Shown piece by piece: positions 6,681-22,766 of a stretch of 64,000 nt of DNA. Within the stretch, counting starts at the first letter, position 1. Every line of letters starts with the position of its first letter. The translations under genes and the position numbers were made by a program. The stretch comes from Formosa algae (GTDB lineage: Bacteria > Bacteroidota > Bacteroidia > Flavobacteriales > Flavobacteriaceae): the NCBI RefSeq assembly GCF_001439665.1, contig NZ_LMAK01000063.1, positions 1 to 64,000 of the forward strand, given 5' to 3'. The notes under the pieces were generated by a model. The model saw nothing but the letters and a program-made list of their open reading frames with translations, made no database searches and was not told the DNA's origin.

Positions 6681-6710
6681 AAAAACGAACATCACTGTTC
6701 GTTTTTTTTT
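6681..6710 (+). terminator. Strong terminator after the DUF5916 gene
   Basis: AACGAACA (6684-6691) and TGTTCGTT (6696-6703) form a perfect 8-bp stem with a 4-base loop, followed by an unbroken T run. It separates the DUF5916 gene from the sigma-factor locus. Confidence 0.88.
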
Positions 6711-7108: not shown

Positions 7109-7786
7109 ATGCAAGAATATGGAGAATTAGCTTTGGCTCTAGTCGCAAAAAACAATATTGATATTGATTCGTCTGTTATTAATCAAGTACCGGAATCCAG
7201 TGCAAATATTATGCATTCTGAAGAGAAATCGGACGCTGTAATCTGGAAACAATTAAAGGAGGGGAATAAGTTGGCTTTGGGAGAACTATACGATAGATAT
7301 GTAAACATATTATTTTCTTACGGTATGTATCATTCTAAAGATAGAGGCTATGTTATGGATTGTATTCACGATTTATTTGTAGACCTGTTTAAGTATAGAA
7401 ATAACTTGTCTAAAACAGATAATGTAAAATATTATTTATTTAAGTCGCTTAAACGAAAAATCAATAAAAAATACAATAAAAAGAATGCTTCTGTGTCTTT
7501 AGACGAATTTGATTATGAGATTGATGCCATGACCAAAAAGCATTCAGATTCTTGCGAAAAAGATATCATAACTGAAGAGCATATTTCTGAACGTAATAAA
7601 AAGTTAAGAGATGCCATGAAAACGTTAAGTGATAAGCAACGCAAAGTTTTAGCACTTCGATTTGAGGAAGAAAAAACGTATGAAGAAATTTCTGAAATGA
7701 TAGGCGTTTCTGTACAATCTGCAAGAACCTCAATTTACCGCGCAATTAAAGCTTTAAGAAAGTTGAATTTCTTTTTTCTATTCTAG
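7109..7786 (+). CDS. ECF-type RNA polymerase sigma factor
   Basis: Sigma-70 family factor of the group that pairs with FecR and SusC in Bacteroidota. Region 2 begins around IWKQLKEGNKLALGELYDRY; region 4 is the helix-turn-helix LSDKQRKVLALRFEEEKTYEEISEMIGVS with SVQSARTSIYRAIKAL. The frame opens at 7055, but the first 18 residues look unlike coding sequence. I give 7109 (225 aa), which has an AG-rich stretch before it. An ATG at 7211 would give 191 aa, closest to the usual family length, so the start is unsettled. The fecR gene follows after about 115 bases. It probably directs transcription of the susC locus when the receptor signals. Confidence 0.85.
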   Translation: MQEYGELALALVAKNNIDIDSSVINQVPESSANIMHSEEKSDAVIWKQLKEGNKLALGELYDRYVNILFSYGMYHSKDRGYVMDCIHDLFVDLFKYRNNLSKTDNVKYYLFKSLKRKINKKYNKKNASVSLDEFDYEIDAMTKKHSDSCEKDIITEEHISERNKKLRDAMKTLSDKQRKVLALRFEEEKTYEEISEMIGVSVQSARTSIYRAIKALRKLNFFFLF

Positions 7787-7900
7787 AAATCAACCGCTTT
7801 TCCAATTAAAGTTAAAACTTTATGTCTATATAAAGTAAAAAAGTTACTATTAATAACAGAGGGAGTTTTTTAATATTACTAATACAGCATACAACACATT

Positions 7901-8956
7901 ATGAAAGATAATGGATCTAATAAAGTCAAAATTTTACCTATAACTAATTTAGAGAAGGTGGCTTTAAAAAATAAAATATTTCATTCGGTCGATAAGCTCG
8001 ATCAGAAAAAGAAACACAAAGGTTTAGCTATGGGGTTAGCGTTTTCGTTAGTGTTTTTGGCAGGGAGTTTTATTTATTTTTATAATGCGCCAACTACATC
8101 TATAACAGACATTGTAAATACAACAGAACAAATAGATTTTAGTAAATCTAACGAGGTTGTTTTAATCTTGGGTGATGGGGAAAACTTAAAAATAGGTGAA
8201 GACGAAAGTTCTATCAATTATTCAAATTCGGGGAGAACATTAACCATCGGAGACTCGAAAGAAATAGAACAAGAAACGTCTAGAAATAATAAAACATCGT
8301 ACAATACGCTTATAATTCCTTACGGAAAACGTTCTAAAATTAATCTATCAGACGGAACTGTAGTATGGTTAAATTCAGGATCAAAACTTGTGTATCCTGT
8401 GGCATTTAATGGCGATAAAAGGGAGATTTATTTAGAGGGGGAAGCCATTTTTGATGTGGCTCACGATAAAAGTCATCCTTTTATAGTAAAGTCTAAAGAC
8501 CAGGAAGTTGAGGTTTTAGGAACCGTTTTCGGTGTCACAAGCTACTCTGAAGAAGAAGCGGTTAATACTGTTTTAAAAAGTGGAAGTGTAATGATTAGTT
8601 ATCACAACAATCCTAAAACGCAGAAATACTCAGATAAGATTAAAATTACACCGGGTACAAAAGCAACGTATAATAAAGCGACTCAAGGTATAGTTTCAGA
8701 AAAAGTAAATGTTAACAATTATTTTTCTTGGAGAGATGGAGTGTTGGTGTTTCAAAATAACGACTTAGAACATGTAACAAATAGAATTTCTAGATATTAT
8801 AATATTGATATTGATATTAAAAATGAAGATTTAGCCAAAGAGAGTTTTTCTGGGTATTTAGATCTAAATGAAAATATAGAGAAGGTAATTCAAAATATAA
8901 GCGCAAGTACAAACATGAGTTATACAATTGAAAAAGATAAAATAATAATTAATTAA
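7901..8956 (+). CDS. FecR-family anti-sigma factor
   Basis: 351 aa. A short cytoplasmic N-terminus (1-40) that would hold the sigma factor is followed by one membrane helix (about residues 41-61) and a periplasmic FecR domain (about 135-245, with LSDGTVVWLNSGSKL and EGEAIFDVAHDKSHPFIVKS). A C-terminal DUF4974 domain lies at about 275-351. In this family the periplasmic part senses the STN domain of a TonB-dependent receptor and releases the sigma factor. The SusC downstream carries such an STN domain, completing the three-part trans-envelope switch. Confidence 0.93.
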   Translation: MKDNGSNKVKILPITNLEKVALKNKIFHSVDKLDQKKKHKGLAMGLAFSLVFLAGSFIYFYNAPTTSITDIVNTTEQIDFSKSNEVVLILGDGENLKIGEDESSINYSNSGRTLTIGDSKEIEQETSRNNKTSYNTLIIPYGKRSKINLSDGTVVWLNSGSKLVYPVAFNGDKREIYLEGEAIFDVAHDKSHPFIVKSKDQEVEVLGTVFGVTSYSEEEAVNTVLKSGSVMISYHNNPKTQKYSDKIKITPGTKATYNKATQGIVSEKVNVNNYFSWRDGVLVFQNNDLEHVTNRISRYYNIDIDIKNEDLAKESFSGYLDLNENIEKVIQNISASTNMSYTIEKDKIIIN

Positions 8957-9004
8957 TCCTAAATAGTTTTATGAAGTAAACAATTATTTGAATTAGTCTT
9001 AAAG

Positions 9005-9039
9005 GCCAGAAGATGCGCCAACATCCTCTGGCTTATTTT
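9005..9039 (+). terminator. Hairpin between fecR and susC
   Basis: GCCAGA (9005-9010) pairs with TCTGGC (9027-9032), and GATG (9012-9015) with CATC (9022-9025), separated by one A/C mismatch, with loop CGCCAA. A weak TTATTTT run follows. It probably ends the sigma/anti-sigma transcript so that susC expression depends on a separate promoter, or it acts as an attenuator. Confidence 0.6.
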
Positions 9040-9046
9040 AAACACA

Positions 9047-9065
9047 TTGCTGTAAAGTACAGCAA
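9047..9065 (+). promoter_or_regulatory. Second hairpin in the susC leader
   Basis: TTGCTGT (9047-9053) and ACAGCAA (9059-9065) form a perfect 7-bp stem with a 5-base loop, 23 bases before the susC ATG and directly after the first hairpin. It lacks a T tract, so it is not a terminator. It could be a leader structure affecting translation or mRNA stability, or an operator. Confidence 0.4.
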
Positions 9066-9088
9066 CAATTAATAATCAAACCAAAAAT

Positions 9089-12000
9089 ATGAAAAAAAAC
9101 TTAAACATAGGAATTCTAATGCTTATGAGAATATTTCTATTATTTATTAGTTTAGGACTCACAGCAGGTTACGCAAATCCGTTGCTGGGACAAACAAAAA
9201 TCGATATTGATGTAAAAAGTATATCAATAGAAGAATTTTTTAAAGAAATTCAAGGCTCTAGTGATTACATTTTCTTTTATAAAGATGATGTTTTAAAGAC
9301 CGGTAAAAAGGTCTCTTTAAAATTTACAGATGCTAATATTAATAAGGTGTTAGATAAAGCCTTTTCTAAAACCAACTTAAGCTATACTATAGAAGGAGAG
9401 CAAGTTGTAGTTAAAAACATGGGTAAAGAAGCAAACTTAGCGGTTGCAGAAGCTACTTTAAAAGTACAAGAACGAGAAGTTTCTGGTACGGTAACTGGTC
9501 CTGACGGACTGCCTTTGCCAGGAGTAAATATTCATATTAAAGGCACATCTGCAGGAACGCAAACCAATTTTGATGGGGAGTATACTTTAGCGGTTACAAA
9601 CGAATCTGTTCTAGTTTTTTCTTTTATGGGAATGGTTTCACAGACTATTAAAGTTGGAGAAAAGCTTACCATTAATATTGTAATGGAAGAAGACGCTGCA
9701 TCTTTAGAGGAAGTCGTTTTAGTAGGTTATGGCTCTCAAAAGAAAGAAGCTATCACTGGAGCTGTTGCTGTGGTTGATGGCGCAGAGTTAGAGCAGGCCC
9801 CAACATCTTCATTCGAGCAATCTCTACGTGGAAGTGTCGCTGGTATTCAGGCCTCTGCACTAGATGGTGCACCGGGTGCTAATACAGAAGTTAGAGTAAG
9901 AGGTATAGGATCTATAAACGCATCAAGCGAGCCTTTATATGTTATAGATGGTATTCCTGTTTCTGCCGGTAGCCAGTCTTTAAATGATAATGATGGTGCA
10001 AGTTCTAACGTCATGGCATCTATCAATCCAAATGATATTGAAAGTATAAGTATTCTAAAAGATGCTGCTTCTACAGCAATTTATGGCTCTAGAGGAGCTA
10101 ACGGAGTTATTTTAATTAATACTAAGCAAGGTAAATCTGGTAAGGCAACCATACAATTAAAAACACTAACAGGTTTTAATTCTCAGGCTTCTAAAAATAT
10201 TTTGAAACCATTAAATGCTGCACAATACAAAGAATTATATATTGAAGGTTATGTAAATCTAGGACTTACAACTGCTGAAGCACAAGCCCAAATGGATAAT
10301 TTATATACACAACAAATAGATCCATCTACAGGAGAAGCAACAGATACCGATTGGTTAGATGCGATTACGCGTACAGGTATAACACAAAGTTACGATTTAA
10401 GTGTGCGAGGAGGTACAGATAAGGTGAAGTACTTTATGTCTGCCGGTTACATGGATCAAGAAAGTTATATTATAGGTTACGGTTTTAATAGATTTAGTAC
10501 ACGTGCTAATTTAGAGTATAAAGCAAGTGATTTTTTAACCATTTCAAACAACATATCTATTTCAGATATTACATCTAGTACAGCGCCAGATGCAGGATCT
10601 TGGAATAATCCGTTTAAATCTACTTTAGAGTTATCACCATTAATTCCTATTTACGATGAAGAAGGTGAATACAATGCAGAGCATGTGGCTTATTTCCCAA
10701 TTGGGAGTAATCCTGTGGGGAGTTTAAGTGGAGATGATTTATGGGAGACAAAGACTAACAGAATTATTGATAATTTTGCAATATCGCTTAATCTTTTAGA
10801 TAATTTAGTGTTTAGATCGCAATGGAATTTTGATATTCTTAGTATAAATGAGTCTACATATTATAACCGTCGCTATGGTTCTGGTTACGAAACCAATGGA
10901 TATGCTTACGAAGGGAATGTGAGTCAAAAAACATGGGTAGGAACACAAACTTTAGACTATAATTTTTCTTTAGGTGAAAGTCATGACTTTAATGTTCTTG
11001 CGGGTTATGAAGCTCAGCAAACTATTAATGAATCATTTTCTGCTTCTGGAACAGATTTCCCAAACGACATTGTCAAAACATTAAGTACTGCGGCTTCAGA
11101 ATTTGCAATTTCAGGAACAAAAAGTGAATATACGTTTAGTTCTATGTTTTTAAGAGCGAACTACGATTTCGACAATAAATACTTCTTATCTGCAAGTGTA
11201 AGAAATGATGGTTCTTCTCGATTTGGTGCAGATAATAGATATGGAACTTTTTATTCTGTAGGTGCAAGTTGGAACATTACAAAAGAAAATTTCTTAGACA
11301 ATGCAACTTTTATCGATTTACTAAAATTAAGAAGTTCATACGGTTTAACGGGTAACGCTGCTATTGGTAACTTCGCTTCTTTAGGATTATATGGTTATGG
11401 AAACGATTATGATGGATCTCCAGGAGGAACACCTTCTCAGTTAGAAAATGCAGATTTAACCTGGGAAACACAAGAAAATTTCAACATTGGTTTAGACTTT
11501 GGATTATTTAAGAGAGTTAACGGTACGGTTGAATACTTTAAGAGAAAATCTTCAGATCTTATTTTAGATGTACCAATTTCTCCAACAACTGGTTTTACTG
11601 AATTGACACAAAATTTTGGGTCTATGAGTAATACTGGTTTAGAATTGACGCTAAACGTAAATATTATCGATAAAAAAGATTTAAGATGGAGTGTTGGTTT
11701 TAATGCCACCTTCTTGAAAAATGAAATTACACAACTAGATGATGATTATACAGATGGAGCGTTTAGAAGACAAGTTGGAGAAGATTTTCAATCTTATTAT
11801 ATGTACGGTTGGGCAGGTGTAAATCAGGAAACGGGAGATGTACAATATTATACAGATGCAACAGAAACGACTATAACAAATGATATAGGAGATGCAGAAC
11901 GTTATTTAATAGGCAAGTCTGCAACACCAGATTTTTACGGTGGTTTTAATACATCTATATCTTATAAAGGGTTTAGTTTAAATGCCAATTTCATGTATTC

Positions 12001-12424
12001 TTCAGGAAATTATTTACATGATAGTAGAGCTGTAGGTTCTTTAGGAGATGGTCGATTAACACCAAGAAGTACCGCAACGTATTTATACGAGAATAGATGG
12101 GTTGAAGGAAAAACAGATGCTTTATTCCCGAAATTTCAATGGGGTGGGCAATCTGGTAGTAACCAAGCCAATGTTACAAGATGGCTTTACGATGGTAGTT
12201 ACATTCGTTTAAAAGACTTAACGGTAGCCTATAGCTTGCCTTCTAAGGTGACATCTGTGCTACGTCTTAACACTGCAAGAGTGTATGCTAGAGGAACAAA
12301 TATCTTGACATTTACAAAAGATAAAGATTTGTATATAGATCCTGAACAATCTATAAATGGACGTTATAATGGACTTACTCCAGCAATAAAAACCATATCG
12401 TTAGGATTAGATATTCAACTGTAA
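9089..12424 (+). CDS. SusC/RagA TonB-dependent receptor with STN domain
   Basis: Outer-membrane importer, 1111 aa. The signal peptide covers about residues 1-34. An STN (secretin/TonB short N-terminal) signalling domain lies at about 41-110, a carboxypeptidase-regulatory-like beta domain at about 130-202 (VSGTVTGPDGLPLPGVNIHI), a TonB-box-like stretch LEEVVLVGYG at 206-215, then the plug and a 22-strand-type barrel. The STN domain is the part that talks to FecR, so this receptor both imports and reports its ligand. It pairs with SusD, whose gene starts 15 bases later. The ligand cannot be read from the sequence; neighbouring enzymes point to a peptide or amide compound rather than a glycan. 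Confidence 0.95.
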   Translation: MKKNLNIGILMLMRIFLLFISLGLTAGYANPLLGQTKIDIDVKSISIEEFFKEIQGSSDYIFFYKDDVLKTGKKVSLKFTDANINKVLDKAFSKTNLSYTIEGEQVVVKNMGKEANLAVAEATLKVQEREVSGTVTGPDGLPLPGVNIHIKGTSAGTQTNFDGEYTLAVTNESVLVFSFMGMVSQTIKVGEKLTINIVMEEDAASLEEVVLVGYGSQKKEAITGAVAVVDGAELEQAPTSSFEQSLRGSVAGIQASALDGAPGANTEVRVRGIGSINASSEPLYVIDGIPVSAGSQSLNDNDGASSNVMASINPNDIESISILKDAASTAIYGSRGANGVILINTKQGKSGKATIQLKTLTGFNSQASKNILKPLNAAQYKELYIEGYVNLGLTTAEAQAQMDNLYTQQIDPSTGEATDTDWLDAITRTGITQSYDLSVRGGTDKVKYFMSAGYMDQESYIIGYGFNRFSTRANLEYKASDFLTISNNISISDITSSTAPDAGSWNNPFKSTLELSPLIPIYDEEGEYNAEHVAYFPIGSNPVGSLSGDDLWETKTNRIIDNFAISLNLLDNLVFRSQWNFDILSINESTYYNRRYGSGYETNGYAYEGNVSQKTWVGTQTLDYNFSLGESHDFNVLAGYEAQQTINESFSASGTDFPNDIVKTLSTAASEFAISGTKSEYTFSSMFLRANYDFDNKYFLSASVRNDGSSRFGADNRYGTFYSVGASWNITKENFLDNATFIDLLKLRSSYGLTGNAAIGNFASLGLYGYGNDYDGSPGGTPSQLENADLTWETQENFNIGLDFGLFKRVNGTVEYFKRKSSDLILDVPISPTTGFTELTQNFGSMSNTGLELTLNVNIIDKKDLRWSVGFNATFLKNEITQLDDDYTDGAFRRQVGEDFQSYYMYGWAGVNQETGDVQYYTDATETTITNDIGDAERYLIGKSATPDFYGGFNTSISYKGFSLNANFMYSSGNYLHDSRAVGSLGDGRLTPRSTATYLYENRWVEGKTDALFPKFQWGGQSGSNQANVTRWLYDGSYIRLKDLTVAYSLPSKVTSVLRLNTARVYARGTNILTFTKDKDLYIDPEQSINGRYNGLTPAIKTISLGLDIQL

Positions 12425-12439
12425 ATTAAAAAAAGACTT

Positions 12440-13849
12440 ATGAAAAATTATAATAAAATAATATTATTGATTATGATAGGACTTTTCTTATCATGTTCAG
12501 AATCATTTCTAGAAATCACACCTCAATCTTCAGTTTCTAGTGATGAAGCAATTACAAATTTGGAAGATCTTGAAGTGTCTGTTACGGGTGTTTACGACGA
12601 GATTTCAGGTGCATATTACTACGGTAGATACATGATAATGATACCAGATGTAATGGCCGATGATGTAAAACAAAACTTATCTGCCAACAGAATTGTAGAT
12701 TTTGCAGAACACGTACAAAATGTAGACGATGCTCAAGCAAACGCATTATGGTCAGGTATGTATTTTGCTAATAATGCACTAAATAATATCATCAATTCAG
12801 ATGTAGAAGTTACAGAATCTACTCAAGACGAAAAAGATCATATCATTGGTGAAGCTTACGCCTTAAGAGGTTTAGTGTATTTCGATTTGGTAAAACTTTT
12901 TGCACAACATTATACTTATACAGCAGATGCTAGTCATGCAGGAGTGCCAATTATATTGGATTTTGACCCTACGTTAGAGCCAACAAGAAATACGGTTAAA
13001 GAAGTTTACGACCAAGTTATTTCAGATATGACTATGGCTATATCGTTAATGGATGACACTTCTAGAAGTTCTAATTCTAATACACTTTCAGCAACATCTG
13101 TAAAAGCATTATTATCAAGAGTGTATTTATACAAAGAAGACTGGGCTAATGCAGAAGCTATGGCAACCGAAGTTATTAATTCAGGATACAGCCTAGTTAG
13201 CAATGCGAACTACCTAACAGTGTGGTCTGAAGATAATAGTACAGAATCTATATTTGAAATTGCAATGACCGAAACAGATAACGTTGGTGGGAATAGTATT
13301 GCAGGTTTATATCTTGCACCAGCAGTAGGTGGTTATGGCGATTATTTACCCTCTAACGATGTGGTGTCTTTGTATGAAGATGGCGATGCGAGGTTAGATG
13401 TATTTATAGACGATTTACTTTTAGCTGGAGATTATGCGCCATATAGAGTAAACAAATATCCAGAAGTTCTGGGTTACGATAATGTAAAAGTGATGCGTTT
13501 ACCAGAATTGTATTTAATCAGAGCAGAAGCTAGAGCAGAACTTGGTACTGATATCTCTGGAGCTCAATCCGATTTAAATGTGGTACGTCAAAGAGCGCTT
13601 CCAACTGCTGAAGATGTGACGGCAACTGGAGAAGATCTTATGAATGAAATCATGCTTGAAAGACGATTAGAATTATGTTTTGAAGGACACAGACTTTGGG
13701 ACTTAATGAGAAAAAAGGAAGATATAGTAAGAACCCAATGTACATCTAGCATTTGCGAGATTCCATACGGCGACGATACTAATATTTTACCAATACCTCA
13801 GGATGAAACAGATGTGAATCCTAATATAGAACAAAATCCAGGATACTAA
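12440..13849 (+). CDS. SusD/RagB nutrient-binding lipoprotein
   Basis: 469 aa. A lipoprotein signal with lipobox LFLSC places Cys19 as the lipidated residue. The rest is a SusD-type TPR-rich fold with the typical features: an N-terminal LEITPQSSVS stretch, ALRGLVYFDLVKLFAQ near residue 140, MRLPELYLIRAEARAELG near 355, and the C-terminal LERRLELCFEGHRLWDLMR. It forms the lid on SusC at the cell surface and captures the ligand. The family is best known for glycans, but RagB-type members bind oligopeptides. It is encoded 15 bases after susC, clearly in the same operon. Confidence 0.95.
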   Translation: MKNYNKIILLIMIGLFLSCSESFLEITPQSSVSSDEAITNLEDLEVSVTGVYDEISGAYYYGRYMIMIPDVMADDVKQNLSANRIVDFAEHVQNVDDAQANALWSGMYFANNALNNIINSDVEVTESTQDEKDHIIGEAYALRGLVYFDLVKLFAQHYTYTADASHAGVPIILDFDPTLEPTRNTVKEVYDQVISDMTMAISLMDDTSRSSNSNTLSATSVKALLSRVYLYKEDWANAEAMATEVINSGYSLVSNANYLTVWSEDNSTESIFEIAMTETDNVGGNSIAGLYLAPAVGGYGDYLPSNDVVSLYEDGDARLDVFIDDLLLAGDYAPYRVNKYPEVLGYDNVKVMRLPELYLIRAEARAELGTDISGAQSDLNVVRQRALPTAEDVTATGEDLMNEIMLERRLELCFEGHRLWDLMRKKEDIVRTQCTSSICEIPYGDDTNILPIPQDETDVNPNIEQNPGY

Positions 13850-13873
13850 TTTAGTAGCCTACTGATACATACT

Positions 13874-13930
13874 CTTGTTGCACACATTATTAGACTCATG
13901 TTCTTTTCAATGTGTGTACAAGATTTATTT
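13874..13930 (+). terminator. Bulged hairpin after susD
   Basis: CTTGT (13874-13878) pairs with ACAAG (13918-13922), and CACACATT (13881-13888) with AATGTGTG (13909-13916), around a 20-base loop. ATTTATTT follows. It may partly terminate after susCD and lower expression of the enzyme genes. Confidence 0.5.
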
Positions 13931-14007
13931 CGCACAAGTAATAGGTCTTAAACAGACAAATTAATTGTCTCTATTAACGTAATTTCAAACAGAAATAAAT
14001 AAATACT

Positions 14008-15162
14008 TTGGAACAAAATCGTAGAAACTTAGTAAAACTATTGTCATTGAGTGCCTTTTTTCCAGGTCAAGTGGCAAGTGCGTTAACATCAATATTACAG
14101 TCTGTAGATGTTCACCCAAATCAGCTTACAGCAAATAATTTACTTACAGATCTTAAAGACGAGAAAATAGAAGCGCTTTATAAAAAAGCTTTGGTTATAG
14201 ATGGTTTAATTATACCAAAAGGATGGAATGAAGATTCTTTTAAGGCTTTAAAGCAATCTGGATATTCAGGGTTTAGTACATCGTTACTTTCAGGTAGCTT
14301 AAAATCTGCTTTAAAAAATATTGGAGAATGGGACGAGCGTATTAAAAACAACTCCGATGTTCTAATAAAAGCCACGACTGCAGACGATTTTATTCGTGCT
14401 AAAAAAGAAAATAAAACAGCGGTATTATACGGATTTCAAAATGCCACGATGATGGAGAAATCTATCGATAATCTAGATACGTTATACAATGCTGGTACGC
14501 GATGGATTCAATTAACGTACAATCAAAGAAATTTGTTGGGAGATGGAAGTACAGAACGTACCGATTGCGGATTATCAGATTTTGGTATTGAAGCTGTAGA
14601 GCGTATGAATGAGCTTGGTATTATGATTGATTTATCGCACTGTGGATCTCAAACCACTTACGATGGTATTAAATTCAGTAAAACAGGTGCATGTTTTAAT
14701 CATACCATGTGTGAAGCTTTACACAAAGGGCATCCGCGATCTAAAACAGACGATCAAATAAAGGCCATGGCCGATAAGGGTGGTATAATGGGTATAATTT
14801 GTTTGGGCTATATGATTGGTCCTGATTTAGGAACAAAAACAACCTTAGAAACTTATGTAGATCATATAGATCATGCAGTTAAAATTGCAGGGATAGATCA
14901 TGTTGGTGTTGCAGCAGATTTTGCCATTCAAGGCCTTGAAGCTACAGGTGCAACTCGAGAAAATTGGTATGTACCAAGATTAACACGTTTTAAACCGTCT
15001 TATAATGTACAATGGCCACCATGGATTCCAGAATTAGATAAGCCAGACCGTTATTTACAAGTCGCAAAAGTCTTAGATAAAAGAGGATATAGCACCGGCG
15101 ATATTGAAAAAATATTAGGACTGAATTGGTTGCGATACTTTAAAGAAACTTTAAAATCGTAA
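14008..15162 (+). CDS. M19 membrane-dipeptidase-like protein with degraded metal site
   Basis: 384 aa from a TTG start; there is a stop 10 bases upstream and no ATG nearby. An RR-containing start (NRRNLVKLLSLSAF) resembles a Tat signal. The fold is peptidase family M19. GIMIDLSHCGS gives His211, FNHTMCEAL gives His232, HPRSKTDDQIKA gives Arg244, and GIDHVGVAADF gives Asp304. The N-terminal His-x-Asp metal motif of active M19 dipeptidases is missing: VIDGLIIP stands where DGHxD is expected. The bridging Glu position looks like Gln144 (YGFQ). One of the two metal sites is therefore probably lost, and chemistry different from dipeptide hydrolysis is possible. Its place after susD suggests it acts on the imported compound. 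Confidence 0.82.
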   Translation: MEQNRRNLVKLLSLSAFFPGQVASALTSILQSVDVHPNQLTANNLLTDLKDEKIEALYKKALVIDGLIIPKGWNEDSFKALKQSGYSGFSTSLLSGSLKSALKNIGEWDERIKNNSDVLIKATTADDFIRAKKENKTAVLYGFQNATMMEKSIDNLDTLYNAGTRWIQLTYNQRNLLGDGSTERTDCGLSDFGIEAVERMNELGIMIDLSHCGSQTTYDGIKFSKTGACFNHTMCEALHKGHPRSKTDDQIKAMADKGGIMGIICLGYMIGPDLGTKTTLETYVDHIDHAVKIAGIDHVGVAADFAIQGLEATGATRENWYVPRLTRFKPSYNVQWPPWIPELDKPDRYLQVAKVLDKRGYSTGDIEKILGLNWLRYFKETLKS

Positions 15163-15214
15163 TACCCATGTTTTAAATCGTACTACCTTTTCACTTAAAC
15201 TACTCTAAACCTTT

Positions 15215-17209
15215 ATGAAATATATCTGTTCTCTTTTATTTGTGTTATTAATCACTCAAAGTTGTAAGAAATCTTTAAATGAAAATAGTACAGCAGAAAC
15301 AGTTGTTTACGACGTTGTATTTAGGGAGAGTTTAGCGGGGACTTATAAAAAGACTCAAACAGCAAAGGGGCAGTATTCATATTATTACACCTATACAGAC
15401 AGAGGTCGTGGGCCGGAATATAACGAAGACATTACGCTCAATGCTAATAATTTTATTACCAATCAAACTGTAAAGGGCATCAATTACTCGAAAGTAGCAA
15501 TAGATGAATCGTTTTCAAGTGCAGATGGTACGGCTAAAAGTGAGAATTTATTTGGAACGTCTACTGCTAGCTTTAACGGCGATCAATTGTATTTCCGTTT
15601 TGATGGTTCTCCAGCTATTTACGAAGTGCTTGCCCAATTGTTATTAAAATCTAAAACAGGCAAAATTGCACTTTACCCAAAAGGCGAAGCCGAACTCATT
15701 AAAAACATACCGTTAACCTTAGATAACGGAACCACTCTAGAGCTTTTAGTAATTAAGGGGTTAGATTTAAATGCAACTTACGTCTGGATGCAAGGCGATC
15801 AAATGGTTTGTAAAATTTCTGGTAACCTTCATATTGTTAGAAAGGATTTTAGTGACAGCCGACTTGAAATGAAAAAGCGTCAAGATGGTATTGAAGACGA
15901 CAGTCTGATAGAAGTCGCAAAAGAACTAACGCATGAAGTAGATAAGGTTATCATTCAAAATGTAAATGTTTTTACAAAAAACGGTGAGTTACTTCCTAAT
16001 CGGGATGTCGTTATAGAAAATAATACTATACAAGCCATTTATAAAACAGCTGAGCAGTCTGTAGATCAAGACGCGCTGTTAATTGATGGTACAGATAAAA
16101 CCTTAATGCCAGGTATGTTTGATATGCATACGCATAACGATAAATTTAGAGGGTTACTTCATCTCGCAGGAGGTGTAACTTCGGTTAGAGATTTGGCAAA
16201 TAATAAGCAACTTAAAACATTAGCAGATCAATTTGAAAATAATGAAATTATTGGTCCGCATATTGTAACCTATTGCGGTATTATAGATGGTCCTGGACCA
16301 TTCGCGAATCAAAGAAATGTTGTAGAAACGTTAGAAGAGGGATTAGCAGAAATTCAAGATTACAAAAATTTAGGCTATCAGCAAATTAAATTATACAGCT
16401 CGATTAAGCCAGAATGGGTCACACCATTAACTAATAAAGCACATGACTTAGGTATGCGAGTAAGCGGGCATATTCCTGCTTTTATGGATGCGACTCAAGC
16501 AATAAACCAAGGGTATAACGAGATTCAGCATATTAATATGTTATTTCTTAATTTCCTTTCAGATACTATAGATACGCGTACGCCACTTCGGTTTACAATG
16601 CCAGCACAACATGGTGCAGATCTAGACTTAAAGTCAAAAAAATATACAGATTTTGTAACACTGCTGCGTGAAAAAAATATACTTATAGATCCTACTGCAG
16701 CTATTTTCGAAAATAAGTTTTTAGCTCAAGTTGGTCAGGTAAGTCCAACGTATAGCATGGTAGAAGATAGATTTCCTATTATCTATCAGCGTAGTTTTTA
16801 TGCTGGAGGTCTACCTCAAGAAGGCGAGAAAATACAGCGTTATAATGCCAGTTTTAATAAAATGCTAGAGGTCATTGCAGACTTATATAATAAAGGAGTG
16901 CAAATTGTTCCGGGAACAGATGGCTTACCTGGGTTTTTATATCATCGTGAATTAGAACTGTATGTAAAAGCAGGTATACCGGTAAACGAAGTTCTAAAAT
17001 TGGCGACTATAACATCTGCAGAAATTACTGGCGTTTCAGATTTATATGGTTCTATTGAGAAGGGTAAAAAAGCCGACCTAATCTTAATAGACGGTAATCC
17101 TTTGCAAGACATTAGTGATATACGTAAGGTAGAATGGACTATGACTGGGGGAAATTTGTTTTATGCTCAAGAATTGTATCAAGCTAAAGGGATAAAACAC
17201 TTTAAATAA
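15215..17209 (+). CDS. Lipoprotein amidohydrolase (first copy)
   Basis: 664 aa. The lipoprotein signal ends ITQSC (Cys17). An N-terminal beta-rich extension of about 230 residues precedes a metal-dependent amidohydrolase TIM barrel of the imidazolonepropionase/prolidase-like group. Metal-site residues visible are HTH at 305-307 (GMFDMHTHND), the Lys of QIKLYSS, the His of VSGHIPA, the His of IQHIN and the Asp of VPGTDG. The C-terminal beta domain ends with the family's GKKADLILIDGNPLQDI. Such enzymes hydrolyse cyclic or linear amide bonds, including X-Pro dipeptides. Export to the periplasm or outer membrane, together with the SusCD pair, points to breakdown during uptake. A paralogue lies at 18483. 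Confidence 0.88.
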   Translation: MKYICSLLFVLLITQSCKKSLNENSTAETVVYDVVFRESLAGTYKKTQTAKGQYSYYYTYTDRGRGPEYNEDITLNANNFITNQTVKGINYSKVAIDESFSSADGTAKSENLFGTSTASFNGDQLYFRFDGSPAIYEVLAQLLLKSKTGKIALYPKGEAELIKNIPLTLDNGTTLELLVIKGLDLNATYVWMQGDQMVCKISGNLHIVRKDFSDSRLEMKKRQDGIEDDSLIEVAKELTHEVDKVIIQNVNVFTKNGELLPNRDVVIENNTIQAIYKTAEQSVDQDALLIDGTDKTLMPGMFDMHTHNDKFRGLLHLAGGVTSVRDLANNKQLKTLADQFENNEIIGPHIVTYCGIIDGPGPFANQRNVVETLEEGLAEIQDYKNLGYQQIKLYSSIKPEWVTPLTNKAHDLGMRVSGHIPAFMDATQAINQGYNEIQHINMLFLNFLSDTIDTRTPLRFTMPAQHGADLDLKSKKYTDFVTLLREKNILIDPTAAIFENKFLAQVGQVSPTYSMVEDRFPIIYQRSFYAGGLPQEGEKIQRYNASFNKMLEVIADLYNKGVQIVPGTDGLPGFLYHRELELYVKAGIPVNEVLKLATITSAEITGVSDLYGSIEKGKKADLILIDGNPLQDISDIRKVEWTMTGGNLFYAQELYQAKGIKHFK

Positions 17210-17315
17210 TCTGTTTTTTCAAAAAAATAAAAATCAGCAATTAAATACTGTCTATAAAAGTATACACTGTTGCTTATTCATAATAGTAGTCTCAAACTAA
17301 ATTAATTTCTAAGTT

Positions 17316-18437
17316 ATGAAGTACATCTTCTTTGCGCTGTTTTCAAGCTGCATGCTTTCTGTGCATTCTCAAAAGTCAAGTTTTTTTAATAATAGTAGGA
17401 CAATTCTTGGCATCCATAAGGAGCGCACAGCGTCTATGGGTATTGGAGATATCGATAAAGATGGCGATTTAGATATTGTTATTGCTAATGGAAGACATTG
17501 GCCAGGACAGAATCGTGTTTTTATAAATAACGGTCGCGGTATTTTTACAGTTTCTAAAGCTCTAGGTACAGAACAAGAAACCAGTTATTCTACAGAACTA
17601 GCCGATTTTGATGGCGATGGCGATTTAGATATCGCAGTTGGAAACGATATGGCGCCTAATTATATTTTTATAAACGACGGAAATGGCGATTTTACAAAAG
17701 GTGCTAGTTTTGGCGAAAAATACGGACATACAAGAAATATAGTTGTTGCAGATATAGACAGCGATGGTGATTTAGATATTTTAATTACCAACAGAGGAAG
17801 CCAAAATGAAATCTGTTTAAATAATGGAAAAGGCGAGTTTACTGAAGTTATTGGTTTTGGAAACCAAAAAGATTCTACTATAGATGTTGAGGTTGCAGAT
17901 ATGAACGGTGATGGGCATTTAGATTTAATTTTAGCAAACAGAGACGATCAGCCTAACTACGTGTATTTAAACGATGGGCATTTAAATTTCAATACAAAAA
18001 TAGCATATGGTACGGGTAACGATGTTACGCGATCTGTAGCGGTTACAGATATAGATACAGATGGTTTCAAGGATATTATTACTGCAAATATAGGTGAGCC
18101 TAACGTGATTTATTTCGGAAGTAAAAAAGGAGCCTACGACCGTAAAGTGGTGTTCGATCCGAGTGCAGATAAATCGTATGCGTTGTCTATTGGCGACTTA
18201 AATGGAGATGGGAATACAGACATTGCCATAGGTAATGTAGGTGGTCCAAATACTGTGTTTATTAATTCTGGAGACGCTAAAACTTGGGAGAAAATAGAAT
18301 TAAATAAGCAAGATTTTAGTACTTACGATATTCTGATGTACGATCTTAATGGTGATCATAAATTAGATATTATTGAAAGTAATTCAGACGAGTTAAACCT
18401 CTTTTATTTCAACAGATTCACACCTAAATTTCCTTGA
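17316..18437 (+). CDS. Exported FG-GAP/VCBS repeat protein
   Basis: 373 aa. A Sec signal peptide (about residues 1-18, ending SVHSQ) precedes six to seven FG-GAP/VCBS repeats of about 50 residues, each with a calcium-binding-like loop such as DIDKDGDLDIVIANG or DFDGDGDLDIAVGND. This predicts a seven-bladed beta-propeller without an enzyme motif. It could bind a ligand or partner protein at the surface. It sits between the two amidohydrolase genes in the same direction, with about 105 bases before it and 45 after, so it is probably part of the same unit. Its role there is unknown. Confidence 0.85.
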   Translation: MKYIFFALFSSCMLSVHSQKSSFFNNSRTILGIHKERTASMGIGDIDKDGDLDIVIANGRHWPGQNRVFINNGRGIFTVSKALGTEQETSYSTELADFDGDGDLDIAVGNDMAPNYIFINDGNGDFTKGASFGEKYGHTRNIVVADIDSDGDLDILITNRGSQNEICLNNGKGEFTEVIGFGNQKDSTIDVEVADMNGDGHLDLILANRDDQPNYVYLNDGHLNFNTKIAYGTGNDVTRSVAVTDIDTDGFKDIITANIGEPNVIYFGSKKGAYDRKVVFDPSADKSYALSIGDLNGDGNTDIAIGNVGGPNTVFINSGDAKTWEKIELNKQDFSTYDILMYDLNGDHKLDIIESNSDELNLFYFNRFTPKFP

Positions 18438-18482
18438 TTTCATGTGTGAAACCTCTCAATTAAAACAATAAAAAAATCCAAA

Positions 18483-20540
18483 ATGATATATAATAAATCA
18501 AATTTTAAACTGAATAAAGCAAGTCATTTCTTAAAAATTGGTGTGTTGCTTTTAGTTACAGGATGTTCAACCGCTCCTTCAAAATGGGAGAATATTAATG
18601 AAGAAGGAACTTTTCTGGTGTATAGAAGGCAGTCTTTAATTGGGGAAGAATCGTATTCTATTACATCGACTAAAGACTCTATTTTAGTAAAATCTCTTCA
18701 GGGAGAAAATGAAAGAGGACGTATTACAGGTGTAGAAGCAGAGTTGCATTTAGATATGAATTTAGAACCTTCGTATTATCTAAACAGACGCTTAACGGAC
18801 AAGGATACCATTGTTAATTTGGAAGTTAAAAAAACGACTGAAGGTATTTCGGTTTGGGAAAAAAACAGAGATTTTGTAGAGGCAAAAAATCAAGAATTTT
18901 TCCCTGTACATAGTAATATTCCTGCTGGTATAGAAATGATGTTATACCATTATTACTTTAAAAAAGGTGGTAAAGGCAGTCTTCCTATTTTACCAAGAGG
19001 AGAAATATCTATGAATTTTATTAAAAAAGATACAGCGCAAATTAAAGGCGAGAATGTCATTTTAGATCGCTATGTGGTAGAAGGTATAAACTGGGGAGGT
19101 AGAACCATTTGGGTAGATCAGTCTCAAAATTTAGTAGCTCTTGTAAAAGCCAATACCCAGATAAGAGAGTACATTAAAAAAGGTTATGAAGAAGCAAAAC
19201 CTCTTTTTGTTCAAGGAAATGTTGAAGAACAAATGGCGGCTTTATCTAAATACACCACAGATTTAAAAGGCACTCAAGCGGAAGTGAAAGCTTTAGTAGG
19301 TGGAAATTTAGTAGATGGTTTAAGCGATGTGACTCAAGAAGACATGACGTTAATTATTACAGATGGACGCATTTCAAAAATTGGAAAACGATCTGAAGTA
19401 GCCATTCCAGAAGGTGCAGAAGTTATAGATGTTGCGGGTAAAACGTTAATTCCAGGCTTATGGGATATGCATGCACATTCTAATCAAGTGCAATGGGCAC
19501 CAGCATATTTAGCCGGTGGAGTCACTACGATTCGTGATAATGGAAACGAGCTTGAGTTTGCAACATCATTTAGAGATGCTGTTGCTAAAGATGGTGCTCT
19601 AGGACCAGATATTTTATTAGCGGGAATGACGGATGGTGCCGGAATTCAAGGTAATGGAGTGGTAAGAGCACGAACAGAACAAGAGGCAAAAGAGGTTGCT
19701 AATATGTACTTTTCAAACGGATATAAACAAATAAAAATATACTCGTCTGTAAGTGAAGACTTAACTAAAGTTTTAGCAGAAGAAGGCCATAAACGCGGGA
19801 TGACAATTACAGGTCATGTACCAAATGCAATTGGTAATGCTCGTGGCGCTATTGAAGCGGGAATGGATATGTTAAGTCACCGTTCTAGAATATTAACGGT
19901 TTTATTTCCAGGACAGGATGTAAAAGAATTAGGAAGTAATTATATTTTAAAGAATGACATTAGTCAAGATCAAATAGATGAAGCTACTGCGTTCCTTTTA
20001 GATCATAAAACAGTTTTAGATGTTACAATTGCTTTAGATGTTGCTAGAGCAATGCCAAAAGGAGATGTGCTTGAGAGTATAGAGCCTTTTTCAGATAGAA
20101 TGGCTTACGAGTTGTTTGAAGGTAAACGATTTAGAAGTGGTTTGTCCCCAGCTCGTGCTAAAGATGCTAAAGCAGATTATATTAAAGCGATGGGTATTCT
20201 TGGGCAATTTCATAAGGCGGGAGTTCCAATTGTAGCCGGGACAGACAATATTGTACCGGTATTTGGCTTGTATTTAGAGATTGAAACGTATCAGAAATAC
20301 GGAGATATGTCTCCTTTAGAAGCGCTAAAAACAGCTACAATTATTCCAGCAAAAGCTATGGGATTAGATAAGGAAACAGGAACTTTAGAGGTTGGTAAAG
20401 AAGGCGACATTGCCATCTTAGATAAAAACCCTTTAGAAAATATTAGTAACATTAGAACCGTAGAGGCTGTGGTAACTAACGGAAATTATTACAGAAGTAA
20501 TCCGTTATGGGAAGCTGCAGATTTTATACCTAATAAGTAA
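18483..20540 (+). CDS. Lipoprotein amidohydrolase (second copy)
   Basis: 685 aa. The lipobox LVTGC follows a long N-terminus; an internal start cannot be excluded. An N-terminal beta domain of about 230 residues shares a PRGE and VWVDQ-type pattern with the first copy. The amidohydrolase barrel has HAH at 330-332 (GLWDMHAHSN), Lys in QIKIYSS, His in ITGHVPN, His in MLSHRS and Asp in VAGTDN. The C-terminus EVGKEGDIAILDKNPL is typical. Differences around the barrel loops suggest a related but distinct substrate, for example sequential steps on one compound. The RidA gene follows 40 bases later. Confidence 0.88.
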   Translation: MIYNKSNFKLNKASHFLKIGVLLLVTGCSTAPSKWENINEEGTFLVYRRQSLIGEESYSITSTKDSILVKSLQGENERGRITGVEAELHLDMNLEPSYYLNRRLTDKDTIVNLEVKKTTEGISVWEKNRDFVEAKNQEFFPVHSNIPAGIEMMLYHYYFKKGGKGSLPILPRGEISMNFIKKDTAQIKGENVILDRYVVEGINWGGRTIWVDQSQNLVALVKANTQIREYIKKGYEEAKPLFVQGNVEEQMAALSKYTTDLKGTQAEVKALVGGNLVDGLSDVTQEDMTLIITDGRISKIGKRSEVAIPEGAEVIDVAGKTLIPGLWDMHAHSNQVQWAPAYLAGGVTTIRDNGNELEFATSFRDAVAKDGALGPDILLAGMTDGAGIQGNGVVRARTEQEAKEVANMYFSNGYKQIKIYSSVSEDLTKVLAEEGHKRGMTITGHVPNAIGNARGAIEAGMDMLSHRSRILTVLFPGQDVKELGSNYILKNDISQDQIDEATAFLLDHKTVLDVTIALDVARAMPKGDVLESIEPFSDRMAYELFEGKRFRSGLSPARAKDAKADYIKAMGILGQFHKAGVPIVAGTDNIVPVFGLYLEIETYQKYGDMSPLEALKTATIIPAKAMGLDKETGTLEVGKEGDIAILDKNPLENISNIRTVEAVVTNGNYYRSNPLWEAADFIPNK

Positions 20541-20580
20541 TTTACAGAATTAAAAAATACAAAGACATTAAACCCAAACA

Positions 20581-21132
20581 ATGATGAGTAAAATATTAAA
20601 TCTATTTTTTGTAGCCATGATAATGGTGAGTTGTGCAAAACAAGAATCTAAAGAAACACCAGAAGCAGATTATAACCCTGAAGCCAAGTTAGAAGCCTTA
20701 AATATTGTATTGCCAAGTCCGCCACAACCTGTAGCAAATTATGTAAACGGTGTTAGAACCGGTAACCTTATCTTTTTAGCAGGAAAAGGGCCTAAACATG
20801 TAGATGGTTCAGAAATTACAGGAAAATTAGGTCAGGATATAACTATAGATGAAGGTTATGCGGCTGCGCGATTAACTGCTATTAATCAATTGGCGGTACT
20901 AAAAACCATGCTAGGCGATTTAAGTAAAGTGAAGCGTGTTGTAAAAGTGTTAGGTTTGGTAAATTCAGATCCTAATTTTGTAGAACAGCCTAAAGTTATT
21001 AACGGGTTTTCAGATTTAATGGTAGATGTTTTTGGTGAAAGAGGGAAACATGCACGTGCTGCAATTGGAGTCGCTTCTTTACCGCGTGCACAGGCTGTAG
21101 AGATAGAATTGATAGTTGAGGTTTACGAATAA
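20581..21132 (+). CDS. RidA/YjgF-family protein with lipoprotein signal
   Basis: 183 aa. Residues 1-18 form a lipoprotein signal (MIMVSC, Cys18), followed by a RidA domain of the longer subgroup (PVANYVNGVRTGNLIFLAGKG, and HARAAIGVASLP with Arg159 in the position of the conserved substrate-binding Arg). RidA proteins hydrolyse reactive enamine/imine intermediates to ketones and ammonia and normally work in the cytoplasm. Here the signal predicts membrane anchoring outside the cytoplasm. In this operon it may process an imine or enamine formed by the amidohydrolases; this is inference. It lies 40 bases after the amidohydrolase and 36 before the metallo-beta-lactamase-fold gene. Confidence 0.9.
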   Translation: MMSKILNLFFVAMIMVSCAKQESKETPEADYNPEAKLEALNIVLPSPPQPVANYVNGVRTGNLIFLAGKGPKHVDGSEITGKLGQDITIDEGYAAARLTAINQLAVLKTMLGDLSKVKRVVKVLGLVNSDPNFVEQPKVINGFSDLMVDVFGERGKHARAAIGVASLPRAQAVEIELIVEVYE

Positions 21133-21168
21133 GATTTCAACATTACATCAAAACAAAAAGAATTTATA

Positions 21169-22125
21169 ATGCTTAAAAATATAAAGAATTCGAGTCTAAA
21201 GTCAATATCGCTTTTAAAATGCGTTATGGTGTTATTAATGACGTGTGCGTTTACGCAATATAGTCATGCTCAGGAATTAAAATTAAAATATTTTGGTGGC
21301 GCGGGTTGGGAAATGTCTGACGGAAATGTAACTATTTTAGTCGATCCGTATATCTCTAGATTAAAATTAGGAGATAGCCCATCGAACAGTAAAGACGATA
21401 CGCGAAAACCTTATTACCCTGAAGATGTGTATCAATCAGATACAGTAACTATAAATAAAGTCCTAAATAAAAAAGTAGATTATATTTTAGTGCATCACTC
21501 GCATTTAGATCATTTGGCCGATGTCCCTTATATTGCAAAAAAAACAGGTGCAATGGTTATTGCTACAGAAACCAGTTGTAAGATTTTAAAAGCATATGGC
21601 ATTCCAGAGTCGCAGTTATTAAGAGTTAGAGGAGGAGAAGATTATCAATTTGATGCCTTTTCTGTACGTGTTATTCCATCGATTCATTCCGCTTTAAACG
21701 ACAAGCATTATTACGACTCGCGAACGCATGACGAAGACATTGATTTACCATTAAAATTAGAAGATTTTATAGAAGGGAAATCTTTAATGTTTTTAGTTCG
21801 TTTTAAAGATCATAAGGTGCTTACTGCGGGATCTATGAATTTCTTAGAACGAGAAGTAGACGGATTAAAACCGGATGTAATATTGCCAGGTGTTAATTTT
21901 TCAAGACTAGAAATTTATAAATATACCGAGCGTTTAATGAAGTTAACTAATTACCCTAAAATCGTGATTCCAACGCATTGGGATAATTTTAGAGTGCCTT
22001 ACGGATTTTCGCAAGACGATGCTATTGAGAAAAAAATTAAACCTTTTTTAGAAGAAATGAAGCAAGCGTCGCCAAATTCTAAAGTGATTGTACCTGTGCA
22101 TTTAGAGACCATAACGATTAAATAA
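21169..22125 (+). CDS. Exported metallo-beta-lactamase-fold hydrolase
   Basis: 318 aa. A signal peptide covers about residues 1-34 (ends SHAQ). The metal motif HHSHLDH at 109-115 provides the HxHxDH signature; GGAGWEMSDGNVTILVDPY opens the fold, and further metal ligands are expected at His174 (IPSIHSA) and near PTHWDNF. It resembles UlaG/YycJ-like hydrolases rather than true beta-lactamases. Such enzymes open lactones, lactams or phosphoesters. The gene ends one base before the asparaginase start, so the two are co-translated or at least co-transcribed. Confidence 0.87.
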   Translation: MLKNIKNSSLKSISLLKCVMVLLMTCAFTQYSHAQELKLKYFGGAGWEMSDGNVTILVDPYISRLKLGDSPSNSKDDTRKPYYPEDVYQSDTVTINKVLNKKVDYILVHHSHLDHLADVPYIAKKTGAMVIATETSCKILKAYGIPESQLLRVRGGEDYQFDAFSVRVIPSIHSALNDKHYYDSRTHDEDIDLPLKLEDFIEGKSLMFLVRFKDHKVLTAGSMNFLEREVDGLKPDVILPGVNFSRLEIYKYTERLMKLTNYPKIVIPTHWDNFRVPYGFSQDDAIEKKIKPFLEEMKQASPNSKVIVPVHLETITIK

Positions 22126-22126
22126 A

Positions 22127-22612
22127 ATGAAGCTAGTATTTATTCAAACCGGAGGAACAATCGATAAAGATTATCCGCAAAAAACTAAAGGGTGGGCTTT
22201 TGAATTTGGCGAGCCCGCAACTACTCGGATTCTAGAAAAATTAAATCCGTCGTTTGAATATGAAATCATTACTGCCTTTCAGAAAGATAGTTTAGAGATA
22301 ACTGATGAGGATCGATTGAATCTTGCTCAGTTAATTAATAGCCGCAGTGAACAAAAATTTATAATAACGCACGGCACAGATACCATGATAGAAACGGCTA
22401 AATGTCTTACGGAACACATAAAAGATAAATTAATTGTAATAACAGGAGCTATGCTTCCGGAGCGATTTTATAATTCTGATGCACCTATACAATTAGGGGC
22501 TGCAATTGCAGCAACTAGCTTATTAAAGACAGGAGTCTTTATTGCCATGCATGGTATTGTAAAGTCTAGTGCAACTATTAAAAGGAATTTAGATACCGGT
22601 CTGTATTATTAA
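22127..22612 (+). CDS. Single-domain asparaginase-like protein
   Basis: 161 aa, about half the length of a normal L-asparaginase. It corresponds to the N-terminal domain only: TGGTID at 8-13 contains the first catalytic Thr, and HGTDTM at 82-87 holds the second Thr-Asp pair; the Lys position is occupied by a VITGAMLPE stretch. The C-terminal domain of classical enzymes is absent without sign of a frameshift, and short stand-alone members of this kind are known as asparaginase-domain proteins. There is no signal peptide, so it would work in the cytoplasm, releasing ammonia from an imported amide. It is the last gene of the locus. Confidence 0.85.
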   Translation: MKLVFIQTGGTIDKDYPQKTKGWAFEFGEPATTRILEKLNPSFEYEIITAFQKDSLEITDEDRLNLAQLINSRSEQKFIITHGTDTMIETAKCLTEHIKDKLIVITGAMLPERFYNSDAPIQLGAAIAATSLLKTGVFIAMHGIVKSSATIKRNLDTGLYY

Positions 22613-22729: not shown

Positions 22730-22766
22730 GGGATATCATATTTAAAATATGATATCCCTTTTTTTA
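22730..22766 (+). terminator. Long perfect terminator hairpin
   Basis: GGGATATCATATTT (22730-22743) and AAATATGATATCCC (22745-22758) form a 14-base perfect inverted repeat, with the central bases open as a loop, followed by seven T. It ends the SusCD-amidohydrolase locus about 120 bases after the asparaginase stop. Confidence 0.85.

Follow-up and report, generated by a model that had tools for sequence, protein, structure and literature searches.

A locus of 11 genes built around a SusC/SusD pair, located in the window (the whole stretch of 64,000 nucleotides analysed), may encode the inducible uptake and degradation of an amide-linked non-glycan compound, peptide-like or an N-acyl conjugate, whose breakdown would yield an acidic, aspartate-family amino acid; we hold this sequence-based reading with about even confidence. 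Sugar uptake is the role usually assigned to SusCD systems. If the reading is true, marine Bacteroidota also turn SusCD machinery to one class of dissolved organic nitrogen, and the locus supplies defined genes for finding which compound of that class is concerned. A literature search returned no description of the gene set of this locus.

Table 1. Coordinates of the genes, predicted RNA elements and terminators of the locus
Feature	Position	Strand	Details
Terminator-like hairpin upstream of the locus	6681..6706		scored on both strands
ECF sigma factor	7055..7786	+	PF08281; TIGR02937, 79 bits
FecR-type anti-sigma factor	7901..8956	+	FecR and FecR_C domains
Predicted DonS-like antisense RNA, ~80 nt	8997..9078	-	ends inferred
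Inverted repeat conserved in the fecR–susC gap	9005..9032	.	intrinsic-terminator form on the - strand
Predicted antisense -7 box, TATTTTTG (TAnnTTTG)	9082..9089	-	overlaps the susC start codon
SusC/RagA TonB-dependent transporter with STN signalling domain	9089..12424	+
SusD/RagB surface lipoprotein	12440..13849	+	SusD_RagB and SusD-like_3
M19-like protein, Tat-type signal	14008..15162	+	PF01244, 243 bits; nearest solved relative 2i5g
AH1, lipoprotein amidohydrolase	15215..17209	+	COG1228 prolidase/carboxypeptidase clade
Exported FG-GAP/VCBS propeller	17316..18437	+
AH2, second lipoprotein amidohydrolase	18483..20540	+
Lipoprotein Rid protein (Rid1-like)	20581..21132	+
Exported metallo-beta-lactamase (MBL)-fold hydrolase, UPF0173/UlaG-like	21169..22125	+	HxHxDH intact in 13/13
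Cytosolic single-domain asparaginase-like protein	22127..22612	+	161 aa, N-terminal domain only
Intrinsic terminator, locus end	22730..22758	+

All 11 ORFs lie on the + strand between 7055 and 22612, with intergenic gaps of 1–158 bp, and are flanked by two terminators, as the first-pass annotation had described. Shuffled sequences lead to an expectation of about 8 terminator-like sites over the region, and the two at 6681–6706 and 22730–22758 are the strongest by stem length. The families named in that annotation are matched by domain searches, which return ECF sigma (PF08281), FecR with FecR_C, SusC, SusD, Peptidase_M19, Amidohydro_1 in two lipoproteins, FG-GAP_3, YjgF_endoribonc (RidA type), Lactamase_B_3 and the asparaginase N-terminal domain. 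The same searches find no glycosidase, lyase or sulfatase among the 11 locus genes, again in agreement with the annotation, and the linked glycoside hydrolases, lyases or sulfatases that mark a glycan PUL are missing from the conserved unit in the window and in its relatives.

The SusC-type TonB transporter adjoins the SusD lipoprotein, the arrangement of a SusCD nutrient-uptake locus, and the three elements of trans-envelope signalling (ECF sigma factor, FecR and STN-bearing TonB transporter) are all adjacent. The sigma-factor ORF has two possible starts, at 7055 or internally at 7109, and SusC contains STN, CarbopepD_reg_2 and Plug domains (TIGR04056, 853 bits). In most relatives, a sigma factor and/or fecR is situated upstream of susC. 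Both the sigma-fecR-susC-susD order and the STN domain are shared with Bacteroides STN-SusC loci under ECF sigma/FecR control, but those loci carry glycosidases, whereas the cargo of the present locus consists of amide and amino-acid enzymes. RagAB of Porphyromonas gingivalis is likewise a SusC/SusD-family pair for non-glycan, nitrogen-containing oligomers, and RagA and RagB are found among the PDB sequence matches of the window SusC and SusD; however, RagAB imports oligopeptides and has no amidohydrolase, Rid or MBL genes dedicated to it, and the window SusC is not especially near RagA, the closest solved SusC being the SusC homolog 8aa4. Peptide and glycan uptake cannot be told apart from these nearest solved structures. 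The sigma/FecR/STN elements would also suit a FecIR-type iron circuit for scavenging a xenosiderophore with a hydroxyaspartate or peptide backbone, and a BhcB-like hydroxyaspartate dehydratase occurs in a few loci. Such a role is highly improbable, since it is contradicted by the SusD partner and the degradative lipoproteins, by the conserved gene set, which includes no iron reductase, no FeoB and no siderophore ABC transporter, and by the DASS symporter of relatives, which transports carboxylates, not ferric complexes.

In a genome scan anchored on AH2, the order fecR-susC-susD-M19-AH1-FG-AH2-RidA/MBL is repeated in about 20 Flavobacteriaceae loci from many genera, with 60–90% identity; because these loci lie on independent contigs, the order is more than chance. 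The first-pass annotation had made its proposal dependent on such synteny, and on this point the proposal holds. Most of the genera named for the relatives are marine. Saprospiraceae, Roseivirga and Paraglaciecola carry a core of M19, AH2 and RidA that is not accompanied by SusCD, and AH2 and the M19-like gene, present in 5 and 6 of 249 genomes, respectively, share 5 of them (hypergeometric p 8e-10). In the same-genus genome G245, both locus flanks are missing in an empty-site comparison. Accessory genes in relatives include a DASS dicarboxylate symporter (20 loci), a creatininase (14 loci) and an Asp/Glu racemase (12 loci), mostly an extracytoplasmic lipoprotein with both catalytic Cys present, together with the rarer NadX aspartate dehydrogenase (4 loci) and BhcB-like enzyme (3 loci plus G170). 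In Cyclobacteriaceae, AH2 lies beside genes for a Glu/Asp-or-C4 symporter, an aminotransferase, a further Rid protein and an M19 enzyme of canonical type. The aspartate accessory genes are absent from the Saprospiraceae core loci, and the window retains the asparaginase alone.

The racemase, aspartate dehydrogenase, hydroxyaspartate dehydratase and DASS of the relatives, combined with the asparaginase, point to an acidic product of the aspartate family. The earlier reading of a peptide- or amide-utilisation locus is partly upheld by the conservation of SusCD with amide and amino-acid genes in place of carbohydrate enzymes, but the cyclic or modified peptide that it suggested becomes one option among others. 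We consider it unlikely that this is an unusual glycan locus, whose enzymes would only strip or recycle amide or aminoacyl decorations of a glycan while its glycosidases are encoded elsewhere. SusCD with STN and sigma/anti-sigma control is the usual glycan architecture, 8aa4 precedes RagA among solved SusC proteins, and in three loci of Cellulophaga the DASS gene is followed by a GH63-like gene, treated here as lineage-specific; nevertheless, the conserved unit of the SusCD loci contains no recurrent glycosidase, lyase or sulfatase, the core occurs without SusCD, and the accessory genes are amino-acid genes.

The active site of COG1228 enzymes (HxH, carbamylated Lys, two His and Asp) is intact in 19/19 AH1 and 43/43 AH2 sequences, both proteins being placed at the cell surface or in the periplasm. 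The best NCBIfam match of both proteins is Xaa-Pro dipeptidase, under its cut-off, and the top fold matches are to prolidase, Arg carboxypeptidase and ochratoxinase; enzymes of these kinds split an amide to free an amino acid, in keeping with the amide model. The binuclear metal-site residues and the TIM-barrel fold are shared with the Caulobacter prolidase/Cc2672 arginine carboxypeptidase, ochratoxinase and molinate hydrolase. Compared with these characterised enzymes, AH1 and AH2 carry about 230 additional N-terminal residues that form a lipoprotein beta domain and show only 18–26% identity, and AH2 adjoins the FG-GAP propeller or, in two Saprospirales relatives (L057 and L061), is fused to it.

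The M19-like protein belongs to the M19 family by fold and sequence, as annotated at first, but the ordinary dipeptidase that the name suggests loses its support, since three canonical ligands of the binuclear zinc site, equivalent to human His20, Asp22 and Glu125, are replaced (DGL.., GFQN). This loss is common to the window protein and every aligned subfamily ortholog, in which the equivalents of H198 and H219 are kept; an ordinary dipeptidase role is therefore improbable for it. The IDGLI and GFQNA motifs and the kept His/His/Arg/Asp set are shared with the 2i5g subfamily (PDB title 'amidohydrolase'), from which the window protein differs in being Tat-exported and situated in a SusCD operon. 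Another candidate substrate is a peptide with abundant D-, iso- or beta-linked aspartate, derived from aged protein or peptidoglycan or belonging to the beta-Asp dipeptides of cyanophycin type, from which the racemase and aspartate dehydrogenase would turn D- or L-Asp into usable forms. The extracytoplasmic racemase, NadX and asparaginase agree with such a substrate, as does the canonical M19 next to AH2 in L032 and L033, for M19 enzymes can favour C-terminal D-amino acids (Sco3058). Nevertheless, it seems unlikely, as the main-family M19 protein lacks its metal ligands, domain searches of the locus and relatives return no cyanophycinase or IadA-type family match, and simple peptide hydrolysis offers no evident task for RidA.

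The catalytic Arg by which Rid proteins are judged from sequence (RidA Arg105 equivalent; PMC5619798) is kept in 24 of 24 sequences. Rid1 proteins (PA0814 and ACIAD3089) are measured imine deaminases, acting on 2-aminoacrylate and other imines (PMC5619798), and the window RidA shares with them this Arg and the PDB relatives 3d01, 9bk9 and 9bkb. Unlike the Rid1 subfamily, the window clade and Saprospiraceae contain Rid as an exported lipoprotein. Among the 11 loci in which RidA and DASS occur together, 10 have a RidA that lacks a signal peptide, and all 15 DASS-free loci have a RidA that carries one. This correlation is suggestive only, because the RidA tree reduces it to a single switch and the AH2 tree to two independent pairs, and its use as statistical proof was dropped after the tree tests. 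A substrate with an enamide, dehydroamino acid or imine (for example, a dehydropeptide or mycosporine-like amino acid), from which AH2 would directly yield the enamine or imine for exported RidA, would match both the minimal conserved unit of M19-like protein, AH2 and exported RidA and the marine character of most genera. It appears quite improbable, as no enzyme specific to such compounds is present and a literature search on mycosporine degradation turned up nothing; in addition, mycosporine-like amino acids contain no amide bond, and compounds of their small size do not require SusCD. RidA could also be a housekeeping gene travelling with the operon.

The lactam or lactone chemistry suggested earlier gains no specific support, the MBL protein being UPF0173/UlaG-like. 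The asparaginase lacks one of the two domains of Type I/II enzymes; it is retained in Formosa relatives and G170, with 68–77% conservation in relatives, and may act on something else.

In the favoured amide model, substrate bound at SusC would set off a signal that reaches the sigma factor by way of STN and FecR. Release of the amino-acid part, on the outer side of the inner membrane, would fall to AH1 and AH2, which the propeller and M19-like protein may assist as binding or accessory subunits. RidA would then hydrolyse an imine or enamine derived from that part, outside in the window type and after import in DASS-bearing relatives, and the asparaginase, racemase, NadX or BhcB-like enzymes would channel the product to aspartate, iminosuccinate and oxaloacetate. 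An exported imine hydrolase paired with amidohydrolases is unusual and testable. We put forward, tentatively and short of even confidence, an extended reading: an undescribed non-carbohydrate SusCD catabolism of marine Bacteroidota, in which an acidic-amino-acid conjugate is degraded via an imine, a DonS-type RNA controls susC, and a 'compartment switch' separates a lineage that exports RidA from another that imports the intermediate by DASS and has cytosolic RidA.

The fecR–susC gap probably encodes a small DonS-like antisense RNA, which would probably repress the system without substrate. The inverted repeat has the form of an intrinsic terminator on the - strand, with a U-run that is weak in this genome (CTTTAAGA), and the antisense box over the susC start is written as CATATTTTTG. 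This start context is found in 15 of 21 susC genes and in 1 of 340 other ORF starts; conservation is the evidence behind the predicted antisense terminator and promoter. A plain sense-strand RNA leader is less likely, because the U-run is antisense, the loop is seen in either orientation, and covarying pairs are almost exclusively Watson-Crick, with one GU cell (alignment A3) as the only G-U exception. The hairpin has no match in Rfam, and a riboswitch or Rfam family was rejected on this ground. A two-hairpin leader peculiar to this locus was also rejected, as it stands ahead of many fecR-linked susC genes. A phylum-wide search by the hairpin alone returns mostly ordinary terminators outside the family.

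To our knowledge, DonS-type antisense RNA has so far been described in Bacteroides. The family members there are 78–128 nt long and provide a precedent for susC repression (PMC7366714); the window RNA, predicted from sequence, would resemble them in its length and its position over the susC start. If true, the hairpin and antisense promoter would extend antisense SusC control from gut Bacteroides to marine Flavobacteriaceae, the family in which the covarying hairpin and antisense -7 box are widespread in the fecR–susC gap.

Eleven genes lie on the + strand of the window between terminator-like hairpins, with intergenic gaps of 1-158 bp, as the first-pass annotation had described (one direction, two bounding terminators). 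Their Pfam and NCBIfam families are also those it had named: ECF sigma, FecR, STN-bearing SusC, SusD, M19, two amidohydrolases (AH1 and AH2, lipoproteins), an FG-GAP propeller, YjgF/Rid, a metallo-beta-lactamase fold (MBL), and a single asparaginase domain. Likewise in agreement, the eleven-gene unit contains no carbohydrate-active enzyme. The transporter/regulator module is that of an ordinary STN-SusCD system, but the absent glycan enzymes, the conserved amide set, and the unusual exported Rid protein make the complete locus a variant of it. No description of this gene set was found in the open literature, which is weak evidence, as subscription journals lie mostly outside that scope.

Coordinates of the locus features and of the related loci
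Feature	Sequence	Coordinates	Strand
Upstream terminator-like hairpin	window	6681-6706	
Eleven-gene locus	window	7055-22612	+
Inverted repeat plus antisense -7 box	window	8994-9091	
Predicted antisense RNA	window	8997-9078	-
Conserved inverted repeat	window	9005-9032	
Downstream terminator-like hairpin	window	22730-22758	
Propeller-AH2 fusion, Saprospirales	L057	4112-7201	
Propeller-AH2 fusion, Saprospirales	L061	8891-11986	
Core, Paraglaciecola marina	L058	68-8246	
Lone M19-like protein, genome G065	L095	9414-10508	
Split susC, Cellulophaga baltica DSM 24729	L024	616-3948	
Leader, susC and SusD, Aureibaculum flavum	L036	343-5402	

Used as the query against 84,980 species genomes, AH2 yields 43 loci; their ORFs were matched to the proteins of the window and then clustered. 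The gene order, which had been proposed for a search in other Flavobacteriaceae, recurs in about 20 loci of that family as fecR-susC-susD-M19-AH1-FG-AH2 followed by RidA and/or MBL, with M19 or AH1 absent from a few; these loci belong to Formosa, Cellulophaga, Maribacter, Muricauda/Allomuricauda, Arenibacter, Polaribacter, Tamlana, and Aureibaculum. A smaller M19-AH2-RidA unit without SusCD exists in Saprospiraceae, Roseivirga, Portibacter, Winogradskyella, some Maribacter, and the gammaproteobacterium Paraglaciecola marina. The Paraglaciecola core (M19, AH2, RidA, MBL, FG, and a dicarboxylate symporter, DASS) comes with an unrelated FecR-like protein and a TonB receptor, and its presence there suggests transfer between phyla. 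Of 249 sampled family genomes, 5 encode an AH2 ortholog, and all of these are among the 6 with a member of the M19-like subfamily (p 8e-10). Genome G065 has a solitary member of that subfamily (~62-65% identity) near sulfatase-like genes, accompanied by neither AH2 nor RidA.

The HxH, Lys, His, His, and Asp residues of AH1 and AH2 are intact in every ortholog. Propeller and AH2 form one protein, a natural fusion, in two Saprospirales loci; as modeled by AlphaFold (mean pLDDT 84, pTM 0.64), the L061 fusion comprises a propeller and an all-beta domain as well as a TIM barrel, with the barrel closest to the solved folds of prolidase, Arg/Lys carboxypeptidase, and ochratoxinase. The MBL protein, closest to UPF0173, conserves HxHxDH plus further histidines. 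The M19-like protein carries a Tat-type RR signal and groups with 2i5g. In the window and all aligned subfamily relatives, other residues (IDGL.., GFQN) stand in place of the HxD motif and the bridging Glu, whereas His, His, Arg, and Asp further along the chain are retained (residue roles as in human dipeptidase 1); because of these replacements, the protein should not be named a dipeptidase. Unlike it, a canonical M19 adjoins AH2 in two Cyclobacteriaceae loci (L032 and L033).

The closest matches of the Rid protein are 3d01 and PA0814/ACIAD3089, the latter being members of Rid1 whose imine deaminase activity has been measured (PMC5619798). The Arg required for activity is kept in all 24 Rid proteins. 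RidA carries a signal peptide in 15/15 loci lacking DASS and lacks one in 10 of the 11 loci having both, the sole exception being Paraglaciecola, where RidA is exported with DASS adjacent. Because the signal peptide tracks the absence of DASS, RidA and DASS are suggested to act on the same intermediate, although this is not statistical proof: the pattern is one switch on the RidA tree, and on the AH2 tree, where DASS loci surround the window clade, it comes down to two independent pairs in the same direction.

Operon extensions in relatives include a creatininase (14 loci), a BPSS1187-family alpha/beta hydrolase (12), an Asp/Glu racemase (12; mostly with a lipoprotein signal, both catalytic Cys present), and the DASS sodium-dicarboxylate symporter (20). 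DASS is followed by NadX aspartate dehydrogenase (4) or a BhcB-like 3-hydroxyaspartate dehydratase (3, plus genome G170, which combines DASS, asparaginase, and the BhcB-like gene). The neighborhood in L033 contains an enzyme resembling aspartate aminotransferase, a symporter of the GltP/DctA type, and a further Rid protein, and the short asparaginase is retained in the window and its closest relatives. These independent additions converge on an aspartate-family acid. Iminosuccinate is the product of both NadX and BhcB and is a plausible Rid substrate. The locus substrate is quite probably amide-linked and non-glycan; for an aspartate-family product the chances are about even. The signal would pass from the SusC STN domain through FecR to sigma, substrate binding and amide hydrolysis would be extracytoplasmic, RidA would hydrolyze the imine outside in the window type and inside in the DASS type, and the product would enter aspartate/oxaloacetate. 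What the sequence itself shows is which parts are present and in what order, which active sites are intact or lost, and which proteins are fused.

In the fecR-susC gap, the alignment of relatives reveals a conserved inverted repeat and a smaller hairpin, whose compensatory changes exceed all shuffles; Rfam has no match to this leader. Hits of its covariance model (R1) lie directly before susC in 27 of 28 checked loci across family genomes, very different susC genes included, with fecR recognized upstream in 26 of the 27. An A-run (at least 5 of 8) precedes the hairpin in 41/46 copies, compared with 4/46 on the sense side, so that, on the opposite strand, the hairpin is built like an intrinsic terminator. 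The Bacteroidota -7 box is TAnnTTTG, and on the antisense strand it overlies the susC start codon in 31/46 copies. The same context surrounds the start of 15/21 susC genes and of 1/340 unrelated ORFs (p 7e-21, kinship ignored), and no other gene of the locus has it. Such a promoter and terminator would yield an antisense RNA of ~80 nt over the susC start, probably DonS-like. It would resemble, in its predicted size and orientation, the DonS type of 78-128-nt antisense RNAs repressing susC homologs in Bacteroides (PMC7366714). The palindrome may also work at the DNA level, and the start context may serve translation. In 33 diverse copies, double changes affect 10/11 pairs and G-U none, and the C[GT]NNAA-like loop outnumbers its reverse complement 31 to 16 among 49 classified. 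With a two-way loop and near-absent G-U covariation, a reading as RNA alone does not fully explain the leader.

In Aureibaculum flavum, the conserved leader precedes a susC that is divergent (34% identity) and inserted next to a partial SusD ortholog; the SusCD pair looks as though it had been exchanged. In Cellulophaga baltica, susC is split into two ORFs, which may reflect an assembly error, a pseudogene, or a frameshift.
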